Shown here in pieces: positions 2,111 through 13,966 of a stretch of DNA of 64,000 nt; position 1 is the stretch's first letter; every line of letters starts with the position of its first letter. The notes below the pieces were generated by a model that saw nothing but the letters and a program-made list of their open reading frames with translations, did not search any database and was not told the origin of the DNA. Made by a program: the position numbers and the translations under genes. Source of the stretch: Anaerobaca lacustris (GTDB lineage: Bacteria > Planctomycetota > Phycisphaerae > Sedimentisphaerales > Anaerobacaceae). Where the stretch lies: the NCBI RefSeq assembly GCF_030012215.1, contig NZ_JASCXX010000007.1, positions 1-64,000 of the forward strand. The letters run 5' to 3'.

Positions 2111-2677
2111 CTAATACTGGCCGGCGCTGATGTCGGCGCCGCCAGCGACCTGCATGCCGCCGCCAGGACCGCCACCGACGGCATCATACAGGCTCACGCC
2201 AATTCCTTGCACGTTGGCGCTGCCGCCCCACGGCGTGAACGTCAACTGCGTCTGCACGCCCACAAACGTCTGGAGACCGAGGGCCGAACCCTGTCCACCG
2301 ATCTTGGTGACATCCTGCGCGAGCCAGGCATTGAGATCCTGGCCCTGCAACCCGCTGGCCGGAACCTGCGTTTGCCATCCGCCCCCATACGCAACCTGAT
2401 CGACGTCGAAAAAGCCGACCATCCCGACGGCACCGGCGCTCTGCATCAGCGCCCCGGTCGTGCCCTGGAACGCGGTCGTATGGGTGGGACGATGCGTCCC
2501 CAATTGCGAGATATCCGTGGTCAGTGCGTTGATGTTTCCGGCCGCTCCGTCTCCCACAACGGTCACGCCGTTTTTTCCGAGCAGCCCTGTGGCCTGGTGT
2601 TGAACCAGTCCGACGGCCGTCGCACCAGACGCAACGAGCAGCAGTAACGCAGCCGATACTGCGAATCCCTTGTACAT
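2111..2677 (-). CDS. small secreted protein, divergent family member
   Basis: This 188-residue protein has a clear signal peptide (residues 1-22, SAALLLLVASGATAVG). It is Gly, Ala, Val and Gln rich, with no recognisable catalytic motif and no Cys. It is less like copies 1, 2 and 4 but has a similar size and composition, and a segment (DLNAWLAQDVTKIGGQGSALGLQT) resembling the QSLDVAATQLLGKAGGQG region of the copy at 2851. AAAAGGAGT precedes the ATG by seven bases. Its leader lacks the GCCGA hairpin, although a GTGTTGTG segment remains. Its place in the cluster suggests a minor or accessory subunit of the same assembly, but that is only inference. Confidence 0.65.
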   Translation of the reverse strand: MYKGFAVSAALLLLVASGATAVGLVQHQATGLLGKNGVTVVGDGAAGNINALTTDISQLGTHRPTHTTAFQGTTGALMQSAGAVGMVGFFDVDQVAYGGGWQTQVPASGLQGQDLNAWLAQDVTKIGGQGSALGLQTFVGVQTQLTFTPWGGSANVQGIGVSLYDAVGGGPGGGMQVAGGADISAGQY

Positions 2678-2850
2678 TGTACGAACTCCTTTTCTTCGTT
2701 ACTTCGATTGTCACACTCTGGCACAACACCACAGTGCAATGGGGAGCCCCGGGGCCCATCGCCCTGTCGCGGCCCGAGGGTCGCTTCAGGGCTCCCCGCC
2801 CATTCATCGACAGACGCCTCTGCACCGATGGCGTCAGAACGTCCGTTCGA

Positions 2851-3438
2851 CTACTGGGCTGTCTGCGTCTGAAGCGTGGTCACGGACATCGTGCTGCCCA
2901 CCTCGCCTTGGGCGCCGGGCTCGCCGTACAGGGTCGACGTCTGCATCCCCATGACGGTCGCGCTCTCGGTCATCTGCCCGGAGGCGTTGTTGACGCTCTG
3001 GCCCGCGTTGACGACCACCGTGTGCAGCGCGTCGCCGAATCCCTGGCCGCCGGCCTTGCCCAGAAGCTGCGTGGCCGCAACGTCCAGACTCTGGCCCTGG
3101 ACCTTCTGGCCCACGCCTTCCACGACACCCTGCGTCTGCAGGCTCTCGATCCCGAGATTCTGGAGCACGCCCACGTTGCCGCAGTAACCCCAAGCCGTCG
3201 CGGCCTCACCGACCGACGCGAACAGGTTCTGCGAGGCCTGCGTCCCGCACATGCCCGTCGAGCACTGCGAGTTGTCAACCACCAGGTTCTGCATGGAGCT
3301 GGCCTGCTGATCGCCCTGCAACAGCTCCAACACATTGGCCAAACCGATTCCGGTGCTCTGGATGTGCTGCAGTTGAGCGAATGCGCCCGCGCCCATCACC
3401 AGAACGAACACCATCGAAGCTGCAATCAATTTCGACAT
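2851..3438 (-). CDS. small secreted protein, QG-Q motif family, copy 4
   Basis: This 195-residue exported protein has a signal peptide (residues 1-21, ending GAGAFA). It is the closest paralogue of the protein at 1036-1620: LLQGDQ...QNLVVDNSQ near residue 40, then QSLDVAATQLLG, ALHTVVVNAGQS and ATVMGMQTSTLYGEPG at the C-terminus. Three Cys residues lie in the middle third (CSTGMCG and YCGN), at a position where the paralogue has a Cys pair (ECG, DC). An intramolecular disulphide is therefore possible. The ATG follows GAAGGAGTCTGAAAA. There are no enzyme motifs; an extracellular structural role is inferred from composition. Confidence 0.7.
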   Translation of the reverse strand: MSKLIAASMVFVLVMGAGAFAQLQHIQSTGIGLANVLELLQGDQQASSMQNLVVDNSQCSTGMCGTQASQNLFASVGEAATAWGYCGNVGVLQNLGIESLQTQGVVEGVGQKVQGQSLDVAATQLLGKAGGQGFGDALHTVVVNAGQSVNNASGQMTESATVMGMQTSTLYGEPGAQGEVGSTMSVTTLQTQTAQ

Positions 3439-3515
3439 TTTTCAGACTCCTTCTATTCCGTGTTGTTCACTCCTTTTTGGACCGCCGACAACGTATCGGC
3501 GATCACAACACACGT
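3439..3515 (-). promoter_or_regulatory. conserved 5' leader with hairpin, copy 4
   Basis: GCCGA-N7-TCGGC lies at 3484-3500 with ACGT in the loop and a CAACACAC box just beyond. GTTCACTCC lies between hairpin and ATG. The layout is the same as in the leader at 670-745, although the flanking sequences differ. Confidence 0.5.
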
Positions 3516-3645
3516 GTGCTGCCAACCTGCTTCGCCCACTCCCTGGGCCTGTCACCTCCTTTCCCCCCCCGGGACCTCTTGACCCTGACTTCCTGTCCAC
3601 ACTGCTTCTACACAGACAACCATTCGCCACACCGTGGTCGATCGG

Positions 3646-4842
3646 CTACAGAGGGAACGCCATTCTGTAGAGATTCTGACTGACATCCACGCCGGCGGCG
3701 TTGGGGCCCGCCGACTCGTCTGAAGGCATGTACTCCTGGTCTCTCGCCGCCTCAGCGGGCGCCGGCGCACCGGCCGAAGCCGCCGTCGGCATCGCCGCCG
3801 CCTGCTGCGGGGCCGTCCCATTGGCGCCCGAGACGGCTGCCGCCGTTTGCGGTCGGACGCGAATCCGATCGTACAGCGACGACGGGATCTGTCGGCGATC
3901 GAGCATCTCCGGACAGTAACGGTACGCCGTGGCGCTCATCACCGCCTTGCCCTTGCCTTCGGTGACGCCCTTCGTCTGGCCGCCCAGCAACGACAACGAG
4001 TAATTCGCCTGGCTGTAGCCGCCGCCGCCGCTGAGGCTCGTCGTCGCCCCGACCGTCACGCCCTTCATGCCGCCCGAGATCAACAGAAGGTCGACGTCCC
4101 ACGGCAGCGTCTCCGCCACCGCCGCGTTGTACACCTGGTCCCAGTTGCGGTTGGCGTTGCCTTCGAGGCTGAGCCGGCCCACGTAGGCGTAGCCCTCTTC
4201 TTCGAGACGCAGCGGATCGACGTAGCTGTCGATGAACACCAACAGCGGCTTGCCCGCCGGCCGCCGATCGCGAATCACCGAATTGGCGATCTCGAAGCCC
4301 CGTCCGTGATGGTAGCGGTCGGGCCCACCGAACAACGTCGTGACGCCGTTGAGCACCCCGCCGAGAACCTCCAGCGGGCCGTTGTACGACAGCGACCGGA
4401 GGATGCCGCGCACCTCATACATGTCCTCTTCGCTCGTCGGGTCGAACACGCGCTCGTAGACGCGGTCGTGCGAGGTCGGCCCGTTCGGGAAATAGGCCTT
4501 GATGGTCCCCCACCCTCCGTGATTCCACATCGGCAGATACGGCGGGTACGTCGTCAGCGGAGCAACCCGCGTCTTGTACTTCGAAATGGACGTCGGGGCA
4601 TAGAACAGCACCGCGCTGGAGTCGCTCCCCTCGGAATACGCCGAGCCTCCGCCGGCCCACGCGACCGAGTCGGAATTGGACGACGAAACGGCGTTGCCGC
4701 CCCCGATGGCCTGCGTGTTCTGGACCTGCGACGGATTGCTCTGGACCGTCGTGCTCATCTGGTAGCCGCTCGACTCCGCGACGGGTCCGGCGGCAAGAAT
4801 GAGCGCAACAACAATCGATACGACACTGACTCTTTTCATCAT
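3646..4842 (-). CDS. exported protein of unknown function, Ser/Gly/Asn-rich N-terminus
   Basis: This is a 398-residue protein that I cannot assign to a named family. A signal peptide (about residues 1-25) is followed by a low-complexity Ser, Asn, Gln and Gly segment (about 27-75). A folded region (about 80-330) has PLLVFIDSYVDP and WDVDLLLISGG strands. The C-terminal tail (about 335-398) is Ala and Pro rich and probably disordered. The region around 255-305 (GVTVGATTSLSGGGGYSQANYSLSLLGG) is Gly/Ser-rich and could be beta-structured. Either of two adjacent ATG codons could start it; AAGGAG lies just upstream. It is the largest and first-transcribed gene of the secreted cluster, so a cell-surface anchor or assembly factor is possible. 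This is inference only. Confidence 0.65.
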   Translation of the reverse strand: MMKRVSVVSIVVALILAAGPVAESSGYQMSTTVQSNPSQVQNTQAIGGGNAVSSSNSDSVAWAGGGSAYSEGSDSSAVLFYAPTSISKYKTRVAPLTTYPPYLPMWNHGGWGTIKAYFPNGPTSHDRVYERVFDPTSEEDMYEVRGILRSLSYNGPLEVLGGVLNGVTTLFGGPDRYHHGRGFEIANSVIRDRRPAGKPLLVFIDSYVDPLRLEEEGYAYVGRLSLEGNANRNWDQVYNAAVAETLPWDVDLLLISGGMKGVTVGATTSLSGGGGYSQANYSLSLLGGQTKGVTEGKGKAVMSATAYRYCPEMLDRRQIPSSLYDRIRVRPQTAAAVSGANGTAPQQAAAMPTAASAGAPAPAEAARDQEYMPSDESAGPNAAGVDVSQNLYRMAFPL

Positions 4843-5993
4843 CGTTCTCCTTAACCATCACCCTTCTGTCCGTATTCGGCGCAAACCGGCGGGACACCCT
4901 CTGGAGATTCGAGAGCCAGAGGCTCCGGATTCACCAGAACTCCTGCTTGCGCAACATGGAACCATCACCCTGGCGCGAGGGATTCCCCTCGCGCAGTCAC
5001 TTGCGAAACACCCTCCAAGCATTTCTGCGAGTGCCTCCGACCGGCGCTCCGTCCGCCGCGCGTCCGCGCATCAAGAGCCGCCGGGTTGCCCCGAGAGCAT
5101 CAGCCTCGTGAGCAGATCGTTCGTGAAACACCCTCCAAGCGTTTCTGCCTTTGTCATCTCCTCCACCCGGCACGCCGCAACGGCCGGGACGTACCACGTT
5201 TCAAACGTTCACACCATGACCGGCGTGGATGGATTCGTGCAACCGATGGGTGGGACGGGTTCCGGCTCATCCCCAAACCGCAGGACGATCCGGCCGCTTT
5301 GATGTGAGCGGGGATAACAGTCCCTGTCCTTAGCACACGCACAGCATCCATGCTTCGTACCCTGTCAAACCCCGCACCGTTTGAACACAATACGAATGAG
5401 CTTACTGTTTTTGCCCAGTCTATGCTTATGGGACGTTTTGTCAAGAACAAAATCCCCCTTCCACGCTTTTTTCCAACCGAATCGACGCCGCCGTCACTCG
5501 TCACGCGTGACTCGTCGCCCGTCCCCCGCGGACCCGCCGGGACGGGGGAGCGTAGAGGCGTGGGAGCGTGAATGCGTCAAACGTGAACCGTCGCGCGTCG
5601 TTCGTCTCTCGTCGCTCGCTTCAACCTCCGGCCTGCCGCCCGCATCCCTTTGGCATGCTGAGCCCCGGTCCTGTGCGGCGGCAAATCCGAAATCCCAAAG
5701 GCGAGATCCGAAACAAACCCCAAGGGCCGAAACCCAAATGAGAGAAACCCGCATCGGCGGATCGCGCCTTCAACGGCCCGTTTTGGACATTGAATCTTCG
5801 GCCGTTCGTGCTTGTTTCGAGCTTCGAAGTTCGAATTTCGTGCTCCGGATTCTGCCCCCTCTCCCTCCGTCAATGCGCCCACGCCGGCAAAAAGCCCGCC
5901 CTGACCTGGACATCGTAGCCGCAAGAACACACCGCGTGCCCTCGACAATAACCGGCAACTGGAGATGTGACCCCGGATTACCCCCCGCGAAGG
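4843..5993. other. intergenic region without a credible gene
   Basis: About 1.1 kb separates the secreted cluster from the nucleotide operon. It holds two near-identical 24-bp direct repeats (5004-5027 and 5124-5147, exactly 120 bp apart). Around 5480-5860 there is low-complexity debris (repeated CTCGTC and CGAAATCC-like words, TTCGAAGTTCGAATTTCG) of a kind common between genes in Phycisphaerae. No open frame here has a ribosome binding site together with sensible composition. Confidence 0.5.
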
Positions 5994-6623
5994 TCAGGCA
6001 CGCGGCGGAACACCAAGGATTGGCGACAGAGCGGGTATGACCTTATCGAGAAGTGCACTCTCGAAGCTGGGGCTGCCTTCGGTAATATTCAGCTCAGGGG
6101 CATTGAGGATGATCTTTTCGCTCTGATCGTATGCCTCAAAGAACTCGTTGTACTTCGAATTGACCTGGTCGAGGTAGTCGTAGGTCATCGGAGCCTCAAG
6201 ATCGCGAGCCCGTTTTCTGATCCGCTCCCAGAGAAACTCGGTCGGGCTCTTCAAACAGATCAGTACATCGGGAGTGGGGATGCGCTGCCTGAGGAAATCA
6301 TAGGTTAGGGTGAAGAGCCTTTGCTCATCGGGGTCCGTTAGAGTCAGGTCGGCAAAGAGGCGGTCTTTGTCGAAAATGAAATCGGCGAAGACAAGTTGGT
6401 CGAACACCCCATCTTGCTGGGCGCGCCGAAGTTGGTGGTAGTGAATGAGGATGAAGTTCATCTCCGTCTGGAAGGCATTACGTTCGGGATCAAGGTAGAA
6501 CTCCGCGATGAATGGATGCCTGCTTGTCTCTTCAAGTAGCGGAGTACCGGCATATCGCATCGAAAGCAGTCTTGCCAAGGTCGTCTTGCCCGTGCCAATA
6601 CACCCTTCCATCGATGCGTACAT
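5994..6623 (-). CDS. deoxynucleoside kinase family protein
   Basis: This 209-residue P-loop kinase transfers a phosphate from ATP to a deoxynucleoside. The P-loop GCIGTGKTT is at residues 7-15, after a short beta strand. EETSRHPF at about 31-38 supplies the conserved Glu region. FADFIFDKDRLFA holds the position of the dNK DRS-type motif, and RIRKRAR forms the lid. Length is normal for the bacterial dAK/dGK group; the substrate base cannot be read from sequence. The start at 6623 follows GAGGTGG at seven bases and lies one base past the stop of the preceding gene, so it is the last gene of the operon. Next to a PurZ-like enzyme, its likely job is making a purine deoxynucleotide substrate; that is inference. 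Confidence 0.85.
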   Translation of the reverse strand: MYASMEGCIGTGKTTLARLLSMRYAGTPLLEETSRHPFIAEFYLDPERNAFQTEMNFILIHYHQLRRAQQDGVFDQLVFADFIFDKDRLFADLTLTDPDEQRLFTLTYDFLRQRIPTPDVLICLKSPTEFLWERIRKRARDLEAPMTYDYLDQVNSKYNEFFEAYDQSEKIILNAPELNITEGSPSFESALLDKVIPALSPILGVPPRA

Positions 6624-6624
6624 G

Positions 6625-7602
6625 CTATTCCACCTCTTCCGACAGTTGCGTATCAGTCTCAATAGGACTCTCAGGAGAAAGCGGAGCTAGATCTGTTTCA
6701 GGAGTAGCAATGGCGGGCGCGGGCTGCATCTGTCCTTCAAGATCATGGATTACGTTCCGAGTCCAGCAGAAGTGCGCATAGATCCCAGTCCAGGTTGCCA
6801 CTATGATCGCAAGAAAGGCTAACACAACCACAATTCCGGATATCCAGCCAACCCTTCGCAAGTCTCGTGTTTCCTCTGCCACCTTGTTTTCCATTTCGTG
6901 GGTGACCTTGTCCAGAGCCGTTCCGACCCGAGTTACCTCCTCTCTGAGTTCAGCAACTGAACTGGTATGCGTGTCCTGTTTTATCCAGTACTTGTGAATT
7001 GGTCTTTCAGGAAGAGGAAAATCTACAATACATTTCCGGCCTTCGACTCCACCGATAGAGCCCTCTTTTCGAAGCGAGTCTGGCGACCAATTCCTTCGAT
7101 TCTGTTCCCAGAAGCTATCCGCTCCGAAAGAAGTCGTCTTCATGAAGCATATCGTAATGATCTCCTCCTGAACCTCTATCGGCTTGTCTTGGTTTGTGAA
7201 GTTGAAAATAGGATAGTAGATATGACCCGAGTATCCTGGGTCAATGAGTGTGCTTCTTCCGGCCAGAAAACCTCGATAGACCTGCTTAACCTTAAGGTCG
7301 TGCTGAGCGATGAGATAGTATGGCAGATTCAGTTTCTCGAATATCTTGATGTAGATGAGCCCGTTCTTCGGGACTACGATTTGGTTTCGCCCATTAGGTT
7401 CGCGGCGCTCGTCTTCCAGCCAGTACTCGTCCCCAACGCGGAGGGTATACGAAGCTGCGTGGAGCAGACTACGCTCAAATGGGGCAATCAGTCCGACCAT
7501 ATCCACGTAGTATTCGATCCGGTCTGACAGAAGAAGTCCGCGCTCTCCATCGGGGTCCGGATCTCGCCATAGAGCATCCTGCCTGAAGGTATTCTTCGCC
7601 AT
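6625..7602 (-). CDS. membrane-anchored dCTP-deaminase/dUTPase-fold protein
   Basis: The 325-residue protein has three parts. Residues about 20-210 resemble the dCTP deaminase fold, with GRSTLIDPGYSGHIYYPIFN at 115-134 matching the Dcd signature IDPGW-SG. Residues about 214-250 are a predicted coiled coil. A single transmembrane helix (about 252-272) is followed by an acidic, Pro-rich tail. In E. coli Dcd the catalytic Glu138 lies ten residues after the signature Asp; here that position is Pro131, so deaminase activity is doubtful. The domain may instead bind a nucleotide. The start at 7602 was chosen because GAGGG sits six bases upstream; an ATG six bases earlier overlaps that site. Soluble Dcd enzymes lack a membrane anchor, so this architecture is unusual. 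Confidence 0.75.
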   Translation of the reverse strand: MAKNTFRQDALWRDPDPDGERGLLLSDRIEYYVDMVGLIAPFERSLLHAASYTLRVGDEYWLEDERREPNGRNQIVVPKNGLIYIKIFEKLNLPYYLIAQHDLKVKQVYRGFLAGRSTLIDPGYSGHIYYPIFNFTNQDKPIEVQEEIITICFMKTTSFGADSFWEQNRRNWSPDSLRKEGSIGGVEGRKCIVDFPLPERPIHKYWIKQDTHTSSVAELREEVTRVGTALDKVTHEMENKVAEETRDLRRVGWISGIVVVLAFLAIIVATWTGIYAHFCWTRNVIHDLEGQMQPAPAIATPETDLAPLSPESPIETDTQLSEEVE

Positions 7603-7625
7603 CCTCATCCCTCTTCTACCCAATA

Positions 7626-8705
7626 TCAGATGGAGACACGTGGATTCCTGCATCCCACAACGGTGGTTTTGGCAATCGCTCGGCGATCGATCAGCTCCTC
7701 GTTGGCCGGGCCAGTCCCGACAAGAGGAACAGGAGTGTCTAACTGAGTTTCCAGTTCTTCAATGAATACCTTTGTGTCAGCAGACAACCCTTCAAGAGCG
7801 ACCTTACTTCTATTTCTGTAGTCAAAATAGTCTGTTCCGAGGACTGCGATTTGCGTCGGGCGATTGACAGCACGGGCCTTCTGAACAAGTTTCAGATCGA
7901 AACGACCAATACGGCGCAAACGCTTTGTCACGCTCGTGAATTCCTGTATAGGCTCTGGGTAGCCACTCGTCTGTTGGAGTTCTTCCCACGTAATTTCGCT
8001 TGCGAGTGGGCCCGAATTGCCGCCTACGCGGATCGGGAAGGTGCGAATCGCCATGATGATATCCGTGACGGTCCGAGGGCTCAGGCCGACCTCGCTCAGG
8101 AAGGCACTCGCCGTTGTGTCCCTGCTCGTGACATACGGATAGTCGGGCGAATGATAGAGAGATAATCCAAAGCCCTGAGTACCTTCGATGATGATTGCTT
8201 TGCTCTGGTCGACACCGTCGTTCAATTCCTCTGAAACGTCGGTAACAAATTCCTTCAACTCAGGCGTGTCTTCGACACGTTTGAATTCGGGGTCTCTGAG
8301 CACTCGTTTGGCGACACCCCTTCCCATGCCCGAAAGCGTCGAGCCCAGTCTTTCTCGCAGCGCCAGCCCTTCTTCCTCCAGCGATTCTGTCTCAGTGATG
8401 ACGCCTGTCTTGTAGTCGATGCCAAGGCGTCCCCGTTCAAGGCCCCATGCCTCGATTTCGTCGAGAAGGACTTTGGGATTCACGATCGCGCCGGGCGCGA
8501 TGAGAAGACGCGTCTTGGGGTTGATCACGCCGACAGGTAACTGGCGAAACACAAATCGTCTGCCCTGATAGTCGACCGTATGCCCAGAATTGGGGCCGCC
8601 GCATCTGACAACAAAATCGGCGTTATCACGTACCGCCAGATAGGACGTGATCTTGCCTTTTCCCTCTCCGCCATACTGACCGCCCACGACTACGGTAACG
8701 CTCAT
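7626..8705 (-). CDS. adenylosuccinate synthetase homologue, short archaeal/PurZ-like type
   Basis: The 359-residue protein belongs to the adenylosuccinate synthetase superfamily, which uses GTP to join Asp to a purine nucleotide. It is shorter than bacterial PurA (about 430) and resembles the archaeal and phage PurZ group in motifs: GGQYGGEGKGK (8-18), NSGHT with His42, EGTQGFGLS, YPYVTSRDTTAS and TSVTKRLRRIGRFD. Bacterial PurA reads GDEGKGK, with Asp13 as catalytic base; here residue 13 is Gly. Loss of this Asp is reported for PurZ, which aminates dGMP to the diaminopurine precursor. GAGGAG precedes the ATG, nine bases after the previous stop. It is probably not the housekeeping purA, given its operon context; the substrate is unproven. 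Confidence 0.85.
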   Translation of the reverse strand: MSVTVVVGGQYGGEGKGKITSYLAVRDNADFVVRCGGPNSGHTVDYQGRRFVFRQLPVGVINPKTRLLIAPGAIVNPKVLLDEIEAWGLERGRLGIDYKTGVITETESLEEEGLALRERLGSTLSGMGRGVAKRVLRDPEFKRVEDTPELKEFVTDVSEELNDGVDQSKAIIIEGTQGFGLSLYHSPDYPYVTSRDTTASAFLSEVGLSPRTVTDIIMAIRTFPIRVGGNSGPLASEITWEELQQTSGYPEPIQEFTSVTKRLRRIGRFDLKLVQKARAVNRPTQIAVLGTDYFDYRNRSKVALEGLSADTKVFIEELETQLDTPVPLVGTGPANEELIDRRAIAKTTVVGCRNPRVSI

Positions 8706-8714
8706 CGAATCTCC

Positions 8715-10262
8715 TCAACGGTAAGCCTGAGGGATGATCAGGTAGCCTTCCTGCTCGTTCCCCAGACCTTCGTAACTGCCCGCAAGATAAAAATAGGCCA
8801 CCAACGCAGACGTCACGGCATCCAGTTCGTCGTGATTGATTTTGCCATTGTTGAAGTCGCCATCGATTCCGAAGTCCAGGAGACCCTGCTTCAATTCCTG
8901 TATGTCCACCTTCTTTCGGATTATACCAATAATGTCCTGGGCTGCACCAGGATAGCTTTCGATTACCTCGAAACCCAACTGCTTGAATTCCTCAGCGAGG
9001 CGTATGCCCCGTCGAGTCAAGCCTCTCATGCTGGGCAACAGGCACGGATAGACGTAGATACCGCGTCGGCGAAGCGTGCGTTCGCATCCCCGCATGATAC
9101 CCAGTTCTGCAATGGCCTTTGCCTCCGGGCCAGGCCCAGCTCTCTTCCCACCGGGGATCGATAAAGGGGAATCTATCGAGACGATCCTGGGTGCCGCTTT
9201 GACCGTTTCCGCGATCAGCTCCTCATCCGTGTTGATCAGCCTCGCTTCGGCGTGGTTTCCCTGCAACACGGCCCACCCGCTCGCCCTCTTTTCCGAGCCG
9301 GTCAAGTCGATCCCGACAACGGGCGGCGCTTCCTTGGCACCACCCAGCTTGCGCAGCAAAGGGGCGATCGTCCTTTGCTTCTTCCTCGGGATCACCATCA
9401 GGTAGGTCTTCTTGCCCGCGCGCAGCTCGACCTGTGTATCGCCGACTCGACGAACACCCGTTGGTCTGCTCTTAGGGGGCCGCTCAATCTCCTGGATGGG
9501 CCTCCGGGCATGCTCGGCTGCGGGCAGAACGCGTTTCTGCATCAGGTCATAGCCGATATCCATGAGCGTCTGCAGGTTCCTGACGTCTTCCCGATTGTAG
9601 TCGACGAGCATTCGGAGACCTTCGATATTGCCGTGTACGTACCTGTTCCAGAAAACGGTCGCATCAAAGCCGTCAAGCCCTGCCATCTCATCGGGCCTTC
9701 GGATGCCAAGGTCGCGTTCGACGACCTTCAGACCGCCGGCAAAGCCAAGCCTTCGAAGGAAGAACCGCAGATCGATATGCGCAGGCCACGCGATACAAGG
9801 GAATCTCTTTCGCAGGAACGGAACGTCAAAGAGGCTCCCATTGAACGTGATCATGAGTTGGTAGCTGGCAAAGTCCTTGGGGAAATCGTCGAGGTTGTGC
9901 CCGGCGATGTAAGCCTTGTATTCCCGCCCATCAAAGAGCCCGACGAGGGTAATCTCATCGTAGTAAGGCGAGAGGCCCGTCGTCTCGATATCGACAAAGG
10001 CCACACGATCTTTGAACTCAGGATACAGACGCCAGAACTCCGACTTGGGTAGCAAGCTGGCGAAGAAGGCCGCATCTTTCTTCTCCAGTCGCTCCGAACA
10101 AGCGGCAAGCCATGTCTTGATCTTGCCTATTTTGCCGGGCGAAAGGTCGAGAGCGGCTTCATTGGCCTCGAACTCCTCCCAAGAGTGAACGCCCTTCCTC
10201 CATATCTCTTCTTCGCTCTTTAGGCCGACACCTGGAACTTGTATGAAGCTGTTCGTCAGCAT
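8715..10262 (-). CDS. YprB-like RNase H-fold exonuclease fused to DUF429 domain
   Basis: The 515-residue protein carries two nuclease-like halves. Residues about 5-32 resemble the helix-hairpin segment of YprB (VPGVGLKSEEEIW). Residues about 86-240 are a DEDD exonuclease with FVDIETTGLS (Asp91, Glu93), FNGSLFDVPFL (Asp146), HIDLR and YNREDV (Asp226). From about residue 315 a DUF429 domain begins with VVGIDLTGS and continues with IDSPLSIPGG and a late DELDAVTSALVA, fitting a second RNase H-like fold. The start at 10262 lies one base beyond the upstream stop and six bases after GAGGG; an ATG five codons earlier would overlap that gene. It is the first large gene of the nucleotide operon, suggesting it acts on nucleic acid tied to that metabolism. 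Confidence 0.8.
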   Translation of the reverse strand: MLTNSFIQVPGVGLKSEEEIWRKGVHSWEEFEANEAALDLSPGKIGKIKTWLAACSERLEKKDAAFFASLLPKSEFWRLYPEFKDRVAFVDIETTGLSPYYDEITLVGLFDGREYKAYIAGHNLDDFPKDFASYQLMITFNGSLFDVPFLRKRFPCIAWPAHIDLRFFLRRLGFAGGLKVVERDLGIRRPDEMAGLDGFDATVFWNRYVHGNIEGLRMLVDYNREDVRNLQTLMDIGYDLMQKRVLPAAEHARRPIQEIERPPKSRPTGVRRVGDTQVELRAGKKTYLMVIPRKKQRTIAPLLRKLGGAKEAPPVVGIDLTGSEKRASGWAVLQGNHAEARLINTDEELIAETVKAAPRIVSIDSPLSIPGGKRAGPGPEAKAIAELGIMRGCERTLRRRGIYVYPCLLPSMRGLTRRGIRLAEEFKQLGFEVIESYPGAAQDIIGIIRKKVDIQELKQGLLDFGIDGDFNNGKINHDELDAVTSALVAYFYLAGSYEGLGNEQEGYLIIPQAYR

Positions 10263-10263
10263 C

Positions 10264-10521
10264 TTATCCCTCGGCATCTCTTCCGCGTGATTGTGAGTTT
10301 GGCTGCTCTTCCACCAGTTGGTGAAGTTTCAGCAGGTAGTCCGTCACCGTCATCCCCAATTCGCCGGCCACGCGCTTAAGACCCTTATGATCTATCTCAG
10401 ACACGCGCATAGTGACCATCTTGTTCTTGCGTAGGGCCTTCTTCAGTCGCTTGGCTCGCATGTGCCTCGTCCGTTGTGCAAATCGATCCGAAACCTTCTG
10501 CGTTGCCTTTCGCTTTGCCAT
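10264..10521 (-). CDS. small ribbon-helix-helix-like protein
   Basis: This is an 85-residue basic protein. An N-terminal Lys/Arg-rich stretch (residues 1-34) precedes MVTMRVSEIDHKGLKRVA and LGMTVTDYLLKLHQLV. That pattern, one strand then two helices, fits the ribbon-helix-helix fold of small repressors and antitoxins. Its stop abuts the next gene (one base between) and its ATG is one base past the stop of the 51-codon ORF, so translation is probably coupled. An inverted repeat in the operon promoter region (10700-10721) would suit autorepression by a dimeric RHH protein. Function is inferred from fold only. Confidence 0.65.
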   Translation of the reverse strand: MAKRKATQKVSDRFAQRTRHMRAKRLKKALRKNKMVTMRVSEIDHKGLKRVAGELGMTVTDYLLKLHQLVEEQPNSQSRGRDAEG

Positions 10522-10522
10522 G

Positions 10523-10678
10523 TTACGTGGCTTCTTTCAGGATGCGGTAGTCGTTGCCTAGAACCAAGGCCCCCATCTCGGCACCCTGCGCTTCCATACC
10601 CTGCCTTGGGTTGCCTGTTCTTCCCCCGGAGAGCCTCACATGGGCCACCGCTTTTTTCGTCTGCTGTCTGGTTCTCAC
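10523..10678 (-). CDS. short basic ORF heading the nucleotide operon
   Basis: This 51-codon frame starts with GTG five bases after AAAGGAG and ends one base before the ATG of the RHH-like gene. The product is basic at first (RTRQQTKKAVAHVRLSGGR) and ends GNDYRILKEAT. I do not recognise it. The strong ribosome binding site and exact abutment argue for a real peptide or a translational leader. Low complexity and lack of known relatives keep confidence moderate. Confidence 0.45.
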   Translation of the reverse strand: MRTRQQTKKAVAHVRLSGGRTGNPRQGMEAQGAEMGALVLGNDYRILKEAT

Positions 10679-10699
10679 ACGGTCTCCTTTCGGCTCATG

Positions 10700-10721
10700 T
10701 GTATAGATAGTAATATATACA
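10700..10721 (-). promoter_or_regulatory. inverted repeat in operon promoter region
   Basis: TGTATA-N10-TATACA forms a perfect 6-bp inverted repeat with one helical turn between arm starts. It lies about 20 bp upstream of the first start codon, in the only AT-rich stretch of the region. It probably overlaps a -10 element and may be an operator for the RHH-like protein. Confidence 0.45.
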
Positions 10722-10845
10722 TTCACGGGCGATGCGTCAACGAATCTCTCGAAAATGTGCTGACAAACTGCCCGGTTTGATGGTGCCGTGTCTGGGGGAA
10801 TTCGGGGGACGGAATTCGCGGGAGGAATTCGCGGGACAGCTCAGA

Positions 10846-10942
10846 ATGGCGGTCCGTTAAGGCAATCCTCGTCGCTTTGATCCGCGTTCTTGGGTCAGGA
10901 ACGGGGATTTCATGCGTGGTACATCCCTTAACGGACCGCCAT
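10846..10942. repeat. 97-bp element with 17-bp perfect terminal inverted repeats
   Basis: Arms 10846-10862 and 10926-10942 are exact reverse complements (ATGGCGGTCCGTTAAGG and its complement). They enclose 63 bp that contains a second, small inverted repeat. Just to the left, three imperfect GGAATTCG-GGG units occur in tandem. It could be a small non-autonomous element or a long RNA hairpin. No coding potential is visible. Confidence 0.55.
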
Positions 10943-11122
10943 GCGGGACAGCTTACTCATTTCGGGGGGCCTGGCGGCTTCGGGTTCGTCGTGGCATCGG
11001 GGTCCGTGCTTGCTGGCTCGGCGGAAGCTCGCCTACGTGCGAAGGGGGCAAGGGGCTGTTGCAGGGCCCCTGTGCGCGGCGGCTCCGAGCGACCCGCGAC
11101 GAGATACGAGATACGAAAGGGG

Positions 11123-11200
11123 TGCGAGCATCTGCTTGAGGCGGACAAAGGCGCGGACGACGAAGAGACTGGCCTGCACGGCTCGTTCGGAGTTCAATAC
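11123..11200 (-). pseudogene. fragment of an ORF6N-domain gene
   Basis: The minus strand reads GVLNSERAVQASLFVVRAF and then VRLKQMLA, which matches the helical segment following the ORF6N domain of phage-related proteins (typically GVLNSERAI-VN-IMRAFVRLR). Nothing else of the gene remains. Two similar direct repeats of the TCTCGTATCTCG type flank it, so it may be a deletion remnant. Confidence 0.45.
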
Positions 11201-11274
11201 GCCGGCCGCCCCGAGCGACCAGCGACGGCTCGCGAGATACGAGATTCGAGCGACGAGATGCACGCAGACGGCTT

Positions 11275-11295
11275 GGTGGGCGGTGCCCACCCTAC
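11275..11295. repeat. REP-like palindrome, GTAGGGTGGGC type
   Basis: GGTGGGC and GCCCACC flank a short centre and end in CTAC, so on the minus strand it begins GTAGGGTGGGC. It is one of the family clustered around the transposase at 13108-13680. Confidence 0.5.
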
Positions 11296-11414
11296 GGGAT
11301 ATCCCCCCGCAACTCCGCTCGGGGCAGGGTGTTGCGAGCGCATGAGAACGGCGGCGCAGGTCGCCAAGGGCCTGCGCCGCCGGAGCGAATCGTGATGCGC
11401 GTCGGTCGGGGTGC

Positions 11415-12770
11415 TTATTGGATTTCGACGACGGAGTTGAGTTCGCCGTAGGGGTTCAGCTCGGTGCGTTCGTTGTAGGGGTCCTGCTGCCACTGGCCGT
11501 CGACGACGAGGCGGTAGCGGTAGGTGCCGTTGGGCAGCTTGAGCTTGGCCTGCCAGACGCCGCTGTCGCCGACGCGTTCCATGCAGGTGGCGTCGGGTTG
11601 CCAGTTGTTGAAGTCGCCGGCGATCTGCACGTTCGAGGCGCGTGGATAGAGCGTGACGAAGACGACGGCGTCGCGGATCTGGCTGACGCCGTAGTAGTCC
11701 GACAGCTTCGTGTCCATCGTCGGCGACGATTGGGTGAAGGACTCGACGGATGTCTCAAAGGTCGCTCCGGCCGATTCGGGAAGCGAGATGGGCTCTTCTT
11801 CGAGCTCCAGCGTCTCGGCCACGGGGGAGGACGCCGACTCGACCGCCGCCGGCGCCGGGGCTGGGGCCGCCTGCACCTCAGGTTGGACCTGCGGTTGCGG
11901 CTCCGGCTGCGTCGTCCGAAGCAGCTCCGTCGCGCTCGCCCCGATCGATTCGAGCTGGTCCGCCAGCGTGTCCACCAGACGCTTGCTCTTGGTCACCGAA
12001 CCCTCTTCGGCCCCGATCAGCTCCTGCGCCAGCGACCGGAAGTCCTGCTGCCCCTTGCTCGCCGGATCGTACTCGTTGATCGGCTGCCCAAAACTCGACG
12101 CCTCTTTGATGCGGGTATTGAAGTTAATAACTGTCTTGAACATCCGGTCTGAGAAATGGGAGCGCAGCTCGGCGAGGATCTCACGAGCCATCTTGGTGCG
12201 GATGTCGTACATGCTGGCGAGGACGCGGACGGAGACCTTCTGCTGGCATCGCTTGCAGAGGATGCTAAGCGTCTCCAATTGCTTGCTGAGCCCGTGCAGC
12301 GCGAAATAGCCGGTCTCGACCGGCACAAGGACGTCGGTGGCCGCCCGCAGCGCGGTGAACGTCAGCAGGCTCACGGCCGGCGGACAGTCGATCACCGCAA
12401 AATCGTACTCGGTGCTCACCCCGTCAAGCACCTTCTTCAGGCAGCACTCCCGCTCAGGAATCCCGGCCATCTGCTGCTCGAACGCCGACAGGTCGATACT
12501 CGCCGGCGCCAGCTCCAGCCGCTCGCCGATCTGCCAGAGAATCTCGGTCAATCGCATCGGCTCGTTCCGGCTCTCGCTGATCAGCACGTCGTAAATGCTC
12601 TGCTCGATCTGCTCCTCCGGCACCGCCAGCCCCACCGCACAGTGCGACTGCGGGTCCATATCCACCAGCAGCACCTTCTTGTCCAGCGACGCCAAAGCAC
12701 TGGCCAGGTTGATCGACACCGTCGTCTTGCCGCAACCGCCCTTCTGATTGACCACCGCAATCGTTCTCAT
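11415..12770 (-). CDS. ParA/Soj-like ATPase with C-terminal glycogen-binding domain
   Basis: The 451-residue protein begins with a ParA-family P-loop ATPase: deviant Walker A KGGCGKTT (10-17), LLVDMDPQ near residue 35-42, and FAVIDCPPA near 125-133. This domain ends around 260. A Pro, Ala and Glu-rich linker (about 285-345) leads to an Ig-like carbohydrate-binding module of the AMPK/CBM48 type (about 365-451), seen as VQIAGDFNNWQPD, GVWQAKLKLPNGTYRYRLVVDG and DPYNERTELNPYG. ParA proteins usually move DNA or protein cargo along the nucleoid. The added module suggests cargo positioning of glycogen or of a complex that recognises alpha-glucan; this is inference. No parB lies beside it. The ribosome binding site is weak. 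Confidence 0.85.
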   Translation of the reverse strand: MRTIAVVNQKGGCGKTTVSINLASALASLDKKVLLVDMDPQSHCAVGLAVPEEQIEQSIYDVLISESRNEPMRLTEILWQIGERLELAPASIDLSAFEQQMAGIPERECCLKKVLDGVSTEYDFAVIDCPPAVSLLTFTALRAATDVLVPVETGYFALHGLSKQLETLSILCKRCQQKVSVRVLASMYDIRTKMAREILAELRSHFSDRMFKTVINFNTRIKEASSFGQPINEYDPASKGQQDFRSLAQELIGAEEGSVTKSKRLVDTLADQLESIGASATELLRTTQPEPQPQVQPEVQAAPAPAPAAVESASSPVAETLELEEEPISLPESAGATFETSVESFTQSSPTMDTKLSDYYGVSQIRDAVVFVTLYPRASNVQIAGDFNNWQPDATCMERVGDSGVWQAKLKLPNGTYRYRLVVDGQWQQDPYNERTELNPYGELNSVVEIQ

Positions 12771-12918
12771 CTCTGTCTCCGTCTCTCACCTTCGATATTG
12801 CCGTCCATGACCCGAGGGTTGCCGGCGACACGCCTTCAAAAACCCGCTTAATAGCATTGATGGGCCGGATACTAACGCATATTCTTTCATCGGCAAGCAT
12901 TTCCTCAAAACTTTACCC

Positions 12919-13107: not shown

Positions 13108-13680
13108 TCAATAAGTGAAGGACTGCTGTTTCTCGCTCTGTCCGTAGCAACGGCCCTGCGGGTTCTCATGATCCAGCATCCAATTGGCCGGATTGTCGGC
13201 AGTATACCGCCGGATGTGGTTCAACTGCCGCTCGTTGCGAATCACATGCTCGTAGTAGTTCCGCTGCCACAACGCCGCCCCCGGCGTGCCGCCAATCGCG
13301 TTGACCCGCCGGCAAACCGCCGACTTGTACGCCCCCACAATCGACCCCACCGACCGCCGCCCCGGCCCTTTCGGCGTGGCTGGTAGGGGCGAGGCATGCC
13401 TCGCCCTCCCATCGCAAATCACAACGATCCCATGCACGTGATTCGGCATCACCACGAACGCATCCAGCGCCACATCCTCGAAATGCTCCGGGATCGCCCG
13501 CCAGCATGCTTCCGCAATCTGCCCGAACCGGCTCAGCCGCACTTCTGTGCCCTCAACCCGGCCCAACGGCCCCTGCCGATCCGCCGTGCAGATCGTCACG
13601 AAATACGCCCCCGCCTGCGCATAATCATACGCGAACCAGCGAATCGACCGCCGGTGGTGCTTCCTCGCATCATACACCAT
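13108..13680 (-). CDS. REP-associated tyrosine transposase (RAYT, Y1_Tnp)
   Basis: The 190-residue protein is a single-strand transposase of the IS200-like TnpA_REP group. The HUH motif appears as VVMPNHVHGIV (about residues 80-90). YFVTICTADRQ near 27-37 is the typical N-terminal strand. The catalytic Tyr is expected in LWQRNYYEHVIRNERQLN, at about residue 145. The start at 13680 follows GGGGAG. A family palindrome (13387-13406) lies inside the reading frame, right after the HUH motif, and encodes GRARHASPL, so the protein has a short insertion relative to relatives. Three more copies lie upstream and one downstream. RAYTs are known to work with REP palindromes. Whether the insertion impairs the enzyme is unknown. 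Confidence 0.85.
   Translation of the reverse strand: MVYDARKHHRRSIRWFAYDYAQAGAYFVTICTADRQGPLGRVEGTEVRLSRFGQIAEACWRAIPEHFEDVALDAFVVMPNHVHGIVVICDGRARHASPLPATPKGPGRRSVGSIVGAYKSAVCRRVNAIGGTPGAALWQRNYYEHVIRNERQLNHIRRYTADNPANWMLDHENPQGRCYGQSEKQQSFTY
13387..13406. repeat. REP-like palindrome inside the transposase gene
   Basis: GGGCGA-GG-CATG-CC-TCGCCC, preceded by GTAG. The frame of the surrounding gene is kept. Confidence 0.65.
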
Positions 13681-13699
13681 GTCGCTCCCCTCCCGTCCC

Positions 13700-13966
13700 G
13701 GGCGAGGCATGCCTCGCCCCTACCAATCACCCATCCAACACCCCCACCCACTCCCGGCCCGCCGCCCCAGGCCGTACACCATCCTATCACCCCCGCCACA
13801 CCCCATTCAACCCAATATCCGTCCGCAACCCCCGGCCCCCGGTACGGACGAATCATCATTCGTCCCTGCGCTATCCCCTGCCGTTCCGGGCGAGGCATGC
13901 CTCGCCCCTACCCATCACCTGTCCAACACCCCCGCATGCCCCGTAGGGGCGACGCATGCGTCGCCC
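13700..13966. repeat. array of three REP-like palindromes
   Basis: Copies lie at 13700-13719, 13888-13907 and 13947-13966. All have the GGGCGA-NN-CATG-NN-TCGCCC core, with GG/CC or CG/CG in the variable step and CTAC or GTAG at one end. The sequence between is C-rich and non-coding. The array fills the gap between the transposase and the helicase. Confidence 0.6.

Follow-up and report, generated by a model that had tools for sequence, protein, structure and literature searches.

The window analyzed here, 64,000 nucleotides of Anaerobaca lacustris DNA (contig NZ_JASCXX010000007.1, positions 1 to 64,000), carries on its minus strand a genuine operon encoding a two-domain nuclease (P0001), a PurZ-type synthetase (P0002), a membrane protein with the fold of dCTP deaminases (DCD; P0003), and a deoxynucleoside kinase (dNK; P0004). 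This operon is a conserved cassette across bacteria and archaea, and it is so far undescribed, no cellular PurZ operon of such kind having been found in a search of 5.39 million open-access papers. We propose, at a probability of about one half, that it is a mobile anti-phage (conflict) cassette acting by non-canonical deoxynucleotide signaling. An earlier note, made from the DNA letters alone, had named the same four protein types, and all four assignments stand on the data presented below.

The synthetase matches the Adenylsucc_synt family (2e-53), and its score against the NCBIfam model named for PurZ of Z-DNA phages is 245.8 bits, below the cut-off of 300. The position of the catalytic Asp13 of PurA is occupied by Gly13, and among 84 aligned relatives it is serine in 68, glycine in 16, and aspartate in none. 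Moreover, the loop PIRVGGNSG agrees with that of PurZ0 (PIRVAGNSG) and differs from that of PurA (PTRVGAGPF). According to a 2026 study, Asp13 is present in 99% of PurA and a serine in 147 of 147 phage PurZ sequences, and four archaeal PurZ-related sequences have serine or glycine at this site (PMC12884076); in the PurZ of S-2L, the equivalent serine adjoins the 2-amino group of dGMP (PMC8342488). Judged by these residues, the active site of P0002 is PurZ-like rather than PurA-like. In a maximum-likelihood tree, which included a small sample of PurA and was built without the PurA of the window's own genome, the cellular types A, B, and X fall with phage PurZ and PurZ0 on one side against PurA (support 100/97). 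Type A and the variants with an AAA+ partner (A+X) form a 70-row clade (99/91), the fusions of a kinase to PurZ (type B) are supported at 100/100, and P0002 is sister to a Nitrospira sequence. A housekeeping PurA role was rejected because Asp13 is lost and a separate full-length PurA is encoded elsewhere in the genome (C10:114563-115813), so that P0002 is not the only PurA of this organism, a possibility that the earlier note had raised; a separate normal full-length PurA is also present in 24 of 24 other cassette genomes tested.

Compared with known enzymes, P0002 shares with phage PurZ and PurZ0 (S-2L, phiVC8, Ghobes, and Wayne) the loss of Asp13, the PIRV(G/A)xxSG-type loop, the short PurA fold, and the common clade. 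However, it is cellular, has Gly13, and belongs to a clade of its own, and its neighbors are the nuclease, the membrane DCD-fold protein, and the dNK instead of datZ, mazZ, and DpoZ; neither datZ nor mazZ is among the family matches of the window operon. The short PurA from Pyrococcus horikoshii (PDB codes: 2d7u and 5k7x) is the best PDB match and resembles P0002 in length and overall sequence, but it retains Asp13 and has a PTRVGxGPF loop. In cassette genomes, a full PurA is encoded separately.

The neighbors of the synthetase are conserved as well. A single motif scan across 84,980 species genomes gave 351 PurZ-type relatives, and 80 loci were read. In the 70-row A+X clade, a DCD-fold protein is encoded 3' of PurZ, on the same strand and within 150 nucleotides, in 56 cases, and the nuclease lies 5' within the same limits in 49 (eight of these nuclease-PurZ pairs have a small gene in between, a nucleotide kinase where read); both are found in 43 and the complete nuclease-PurZ-DCD-dNK order in 21, all these counts being lower bounds because of contig ends. 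The cassette spans 15 phyla or more, in archaea as well as bacteria, ranging from Methanobacteriota to Pseudomonadota. Homologues scattered without constant neighbors, an outcome considered in the earlier note, are thus not what is observed.

In the nuclease, the RNase_H_2 match has an E value of 8e-32 and the DUF429 match is sub-threshold (20.9 bits against a cut-off of 23). The DEDDy residues D96, E98, D151, Y227, and D231 are unchanged in 50 of 50 relatives, and the acidic residues D324, D369, D483, and D486 of DUF429 are invariant. The kinase P0004 matches Pfam dNK (2.9e-24), deoxynucleoside and deoxyguanosine kinases are the closest to it among solved structures, and its P-loop, E31, D81, R134, R138, and R140 are invariant across 26 relatives. 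The catalytic motifs of both enzymes are invariant or nearly so. Also, most relatives of the cassette have a monophosphate-kinase-like domain, present either as a fusion with the nuclease or PurZ or as a separate gene; many nuclease relatives carry it as a C-terminal fusion of the AAA_18 type, and the P-loop and arginine residues are retained in both the dNK and the cassette kinase domain. A relative from Lachnospiraceae has a PHP domain as exonuclease in place of DEDD. The nuclease matches in Halorussus are unrelated, stand-alone DEDD proteins and were discarded. As a separate observation, the Dyadobacter plasmid NZ_CP099631.1 (4432-6594; L125) encodes a stand-alone DUF429 protein with 55% identity to the DUF429 domain of the window, and its gene lies directly 3' of a diadenylate cyclase gene, which links DUF429 to another nucleotide-messenger enzyme.

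For the membrane protein, the DCD match is sub-threshold in Pfam (2e-5) and 3e-10 for NCBIfam TIGR02274. The predicted model has a confident DCD/dUTPase domain (predicted local distance difference test above 90 for approximately residues 11-160) followed by long helices, and its nearest folds are dUTPase and dCTP deaminase-dUTPase (Foldseek E 1e-11). A transmembrane helix is predicted at residues 253-271, and 55 of 65 relatives have a predicted membrane helix, several of the other ten being truncated. Although the fold is that of dCTP deaminases and dUTPases, the family departs from them in this C-terminal helix and in its residues: the glutamate of the deaminase (E138 in Escherichia coli) is Pro133, with proline in 60 of 60 relatives, the RSS phosphate motif is absent and replaced, and a new set is conserved (R102, N104, G113, GTGPLVDPGF, and N136). 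Such a pattern is easier to reconcile with a receptor than with a deaminase.

The partners around the synthetase are exchanged from locus to locus. The fourth gene can encode a dNK or an adenylate kinase, or else a NUDIX-like protein or a member of an unnamed "GDFGKYGLLR" family, and in six loci, mostly of Planctomycetes-Verrucomicrobia type, an AAA+ protein stands in place of the membrane protein. The unnamed family, with sequences starting (M)xNRYVGDxGDFGKYGLLR, has no Pfam family and adjoins PurZ or DCD in L045, L046, L061, L093, L107, and L119. For type B, the next gene encodes a DUF7002 protein in nearly all loci, and the gene 5' of the fusion encodes an IrrE-peptidase/macro-domain protein in two loci read; the rhizobial loci, and only these, carry an HD protein (YfbR/DatZ-like) instead. 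The predicted model of DUF7002, built from genome loci only with plasmid rows left out, has DarT toxins as its best match with modest scores. The type with kinase-PurZ and DUF7002 resembles DarTG in the fold similar to ADP-ribosyltransferases (ART) and the macro domain in an adjoining gene, but the fold score is weak and the IrrE-type peptidase and kinase-PurZ are additional to DarTG. In a metagenome-assembled genome of Nitrososphaerota (L118, 6440-10424), one DUF7002 gene lies between two convergent kinase-PurZ fusions. Finally, in a genome of the same order, a distant PurA-like protein with the aspartate retained adjoins a Pua/TIR-domain protein. A further PurA-like protein, from a Rhizobium leguminosarum plasmid (L036), was set aside, having GDEAKG with the aspartate kept; this locus (2350-12886) joins the Asp-type PurA-like gene to PurB, FolE, QueE, QueC, IMPDH, and a nitrile-hydratase-like gene and looks like a 7-deazapurine nucleoside cluster.

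Such modularity is typical of conflict systems, and the signaling reading is favored mainly because partners swap around one enzyme, which is the logic of second-messenger defense systems. The scheme proposed here follows the analogy with Kongming, where dAMP is converted into dITP as the signal (PMC12948488). Upon infection, DNA would be broken down by the exonuclease-DUF429 protein of the cassette (DEDDy or PHP), by phage nucleases, or by both, and the dNK would salvage deoxynucleosides and so supply dGMP. From dGMP, aspartate, and a nucleoside triphosphate, the synthetase would then form N6-succino-2-amino-dAMP (dSMP), or dZMP could arise after the action of host PurB, and the monophosphate-kinase-like domain (host kinases in A. 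lacustris) would lead to the di- or triphosphate. At the end of this presumed flow, the DCD-fold protein, with the deaminase residue lost and a conserved pocket, would bind the nucleotide and, by way of its helix and its coiled-coil tail, act at the membrane, conferring resistance to the phage. The likeness to Kongming is one of outline, in that a purine-nucleotide enzyme and a deoxynucleoside monophosphate kinase would make a non-canonical deoxynucleoside triphosphate (dNTP) for a nucleotide-binding partner. By its description, Kongming (KomA/KomB/KomC) has no family in common with the cassette, which has PurZ instead of a deaminase, kinases of its own, and a membrane DCD-fold protein in contrast to HAM1 and SIR2; in the window operon, neither the KomA adenosine deaminase nor KomB HAM1 nor KomC SIR2 is among the Pfam or PADLOC matches.

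A broader proposal, tentative and at less than even odds, is that these loci represent a new class of prokaryotic immunity, in which PurZ chemistry would convert dGMP to a second messenger, an N6-succino-2-aminopurine or 2-aminoadenine deoxynucleotide, sensed by catalytically altered DCD-fold membrane receptors, with PurZ-kinase units also working with ART-fold, AAA+, and TIR-type partners. PurZ has been studied as a phage enzyme that serves to build Z-DNA. In the present data, enzymes of the PurZ type occur widely in cells and sit in a mobile multi-gene cassette with receptor- or toxin-like partners. If the proposal is true, immune signaling by non-canonical dNTPs would reach beyond dITP, and the cellular PurZ-type proteins would gain a function and become candidate sources of phage PurZ.

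The main rival, which we regard as unlikely, is a cellular Z-nucleotide unit parallel to the phage Z-cluster, where the DCD-fold protein would be a DutZ-like hydrolase of dATP and dGTP that supplies dGMP, and PurZ and kinases would yield dZTP to poison phage replication or nucleases instead of serving as a signal. In this case, PurZ0 phages offer a precedent, pairing PurZ0 with a Dut-fold enzyme that hydrolyzes dATP and dGTP (PMC12884076), E. coli suffers toxicity when the phage Z-cluster is expressed in it (PMC8342488), and the YfbR/DatZ-like HD protein is found in rhizobial loci. Nonetheless, the loss of the RSS motif and of the deaminase glutamate, the membrane helix predicted in most relatives, and the presence of AAA+ or ART-fold proteins in place of the DCD-fold protein next to other PurZ-type genes are at odds with such a hydrolase, and none of the cassettes was seen to contain a Z-specific polymerase.

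The cassette moves horizontally. Of the 87 genomes searched from the same genus or family, none has the PurZ gene, and in a genome of the same genus (G002) the homology of the left flank ends at window position 5985 and is back at 10946 (right-flank homology begins at 10945-10946), with a single open reading frame of 1309 residues in between. This frame encodes Dsr1 (Dsr1-type SIR2), a defense-associated sirtuin (E 5e-104), and the left flank segment is single-copy in both genomes. In another genome (G003), 804 bp separate the flanking genes. Also in G003, a pair encoding a DCD-fold transmembrane protein and a dNK (51% and 72% identity) lies beyond ParA (C1:59924-61516; L168); the reading as a DCD-dNK pair without PurZ was dropped, and loss of PurZ and the nuclease cannot be claimed because a 100-N assembly gap abuts the pair.

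Moreover, the cassette is defense-associated. A BilD gene adjoins the Sinorhizobium medicae pair, and AbiE, SIR2, AbiJ, and UvrD genes neighbor rhizobial type B loci. At a threshold of 1e-15, 98 flank proteins from 20 loci matched 127 PADLOC families against 7 for 98 control proteins from regions near purA in the same genomes, a ratio that overstates the number of genes because models are redundant, although its direction is clear. The defense context contemplated by the earlier note is supported, and the genomic setting suggests an anti-phage defense system.

Salvage of deoxypurines, or house-cleaning of the nucleotide pool after DNA damage, in which the exonuclease and dNK would recycle deoxynucleotides and PurZ would drain excess dGMP, would suit soluble members that are all enzymes of nucleotides or nucleic acids and keep their motifs intact, and a fourth gene that switches among dNK, adenylate kinase, and NUDIX-like protein. 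However, the patchy distribution, with absence from the 87 genus or family relatives searched, the slot shared with Dsr1, and the defense genes nearby speak against it, and a conserved membrane-anchored altered dCTP deaminase is left unexplained; this reading is somewhat less likely than the Z-nucleotide unit. Less probable again is a toxin-antitoxin or element-stabilizing module, with nucleotide chemistry restraining a membrane or ART-fold toxin: the DarT-like model of DUF7002, the neighboring macro domain, and the location of some loci on conjugative plasmids agree with it, whereas the large metabolic part, the many chromosomal copies, and the lack of a small antitoxin common to the cassettes do not. 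Finally, a domesticated phage Z-DNA pathway, which the earlier note had considered, is very improbable in spite of the homology of PurZ to phage enzymes, as neither the nuclease nor the membrane protein has a match in 50,697 phage genomes, a single weak match came from viral contigs, and in the tree the cellular clades are separate from those of phage PurZ and PurZ0.

Several observations weigh against the proposal of a mobile signaling cassette. By pairwise score, the closest solved protein to P0002 is an archaeal PurA (5e-73; PurZ0, 8e-45), the raw-score order being short archaeal PurA and then PurZ0 and PurZ, and glycine at the Asp13 site is known only from archaeal sequences and from no characterized PurZ (PMC12884076). 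The pocket of P0003 retains the aspartate of VDPG, with which triphosphate hydrolysis may be possible, and the window cassette lacks the kinase domain present in most relatives. With respect to the setting, the right-flank repeat is present in three copies in G002, the PADLOC count is one of models and not proteins, a single type I methylase matching 19 of them, and the controls were drawn near purA and not at random.

Table 1. Features of the A. lacustris cassette and its slot (window positions)
Feature	Position	Strand	Remark
Nuclease P0001: helix-hairpin-like N-terminus, DEDDy exonuclease, DUF429 RNase-H-fold domain	8715..10262	-	longest frame from 10277
PurZ-type 2-amino-adenylosuccinate-synthetase-like gene P0002	7626..8705	-	family matches, motifs, tree
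Membrane dCTP-deaminase/dUTPase-fold protein P0003	6625..7608	-	alternative start 7602
Deoxynucleoside kinase gene P0004	5994..6623	-	Pfam dNK
Small ribbon-helix-helix (RHH)/NikA-like protein, possible local regulator, outside conserved cassette	10264..10521	-	weak family match, 3e-4
67-residue leading frame, doubtful gene	10523..10726	-	no family match
Perfect 17-nt inverted repeat ATGGCGGTCCGTTAAGG, 63-nt spacer, right edge of inserted segment	10846-10862 + 10926-10942		
Cargo slot	5986..10945		G002 homology ends 5985, restarts 10946

Six minus-strand open reading frames, all present as the earlier note had described, occupy positions 5994-10726, with the reservations that the 67-residue frame lacks support and that the RHH-like and nuclease frames as annotated overlap by 14 nucleotides. 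The nuclease probably starts at M6 (10262), since this second methionine aligns with the conserved start shared by 38 of 50 relatives, and this start leaves a gap of 1 nucleotide. The other intergenic gaps are 9 nucleotides (nuclease-PurZ), 17 or 23 nucleotides (PurZ-DCD, depending on the DCD start at 7608 or 7602), and 1 nucleotide (DCD-dNK), and Shine-Dalgarno-like GGAG/GAGG motifs precede the PurZ and DCD genes. The small RHH-like protein of that note does have a NikA-like match, albeit weak, but it was rejected as a core part of the cassette, having zero relatives across 91 related cassette loci; the inverted repeat was found as described. Among PADLOC-named defense systems, no strong match was obtained for the operon, the best being the single-gene candidate PDC-S44 on DUF429 (2.6e-9).

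Near the slot, a minus-strand gene (13108-13710) encodes a protein resembling REP-associated (Y1) transposases. Adjoining the slot, tandem secreted-protein genes of 195 and 398 residues with same-genus relatives are present at 2851-4842, also on the minus strand.

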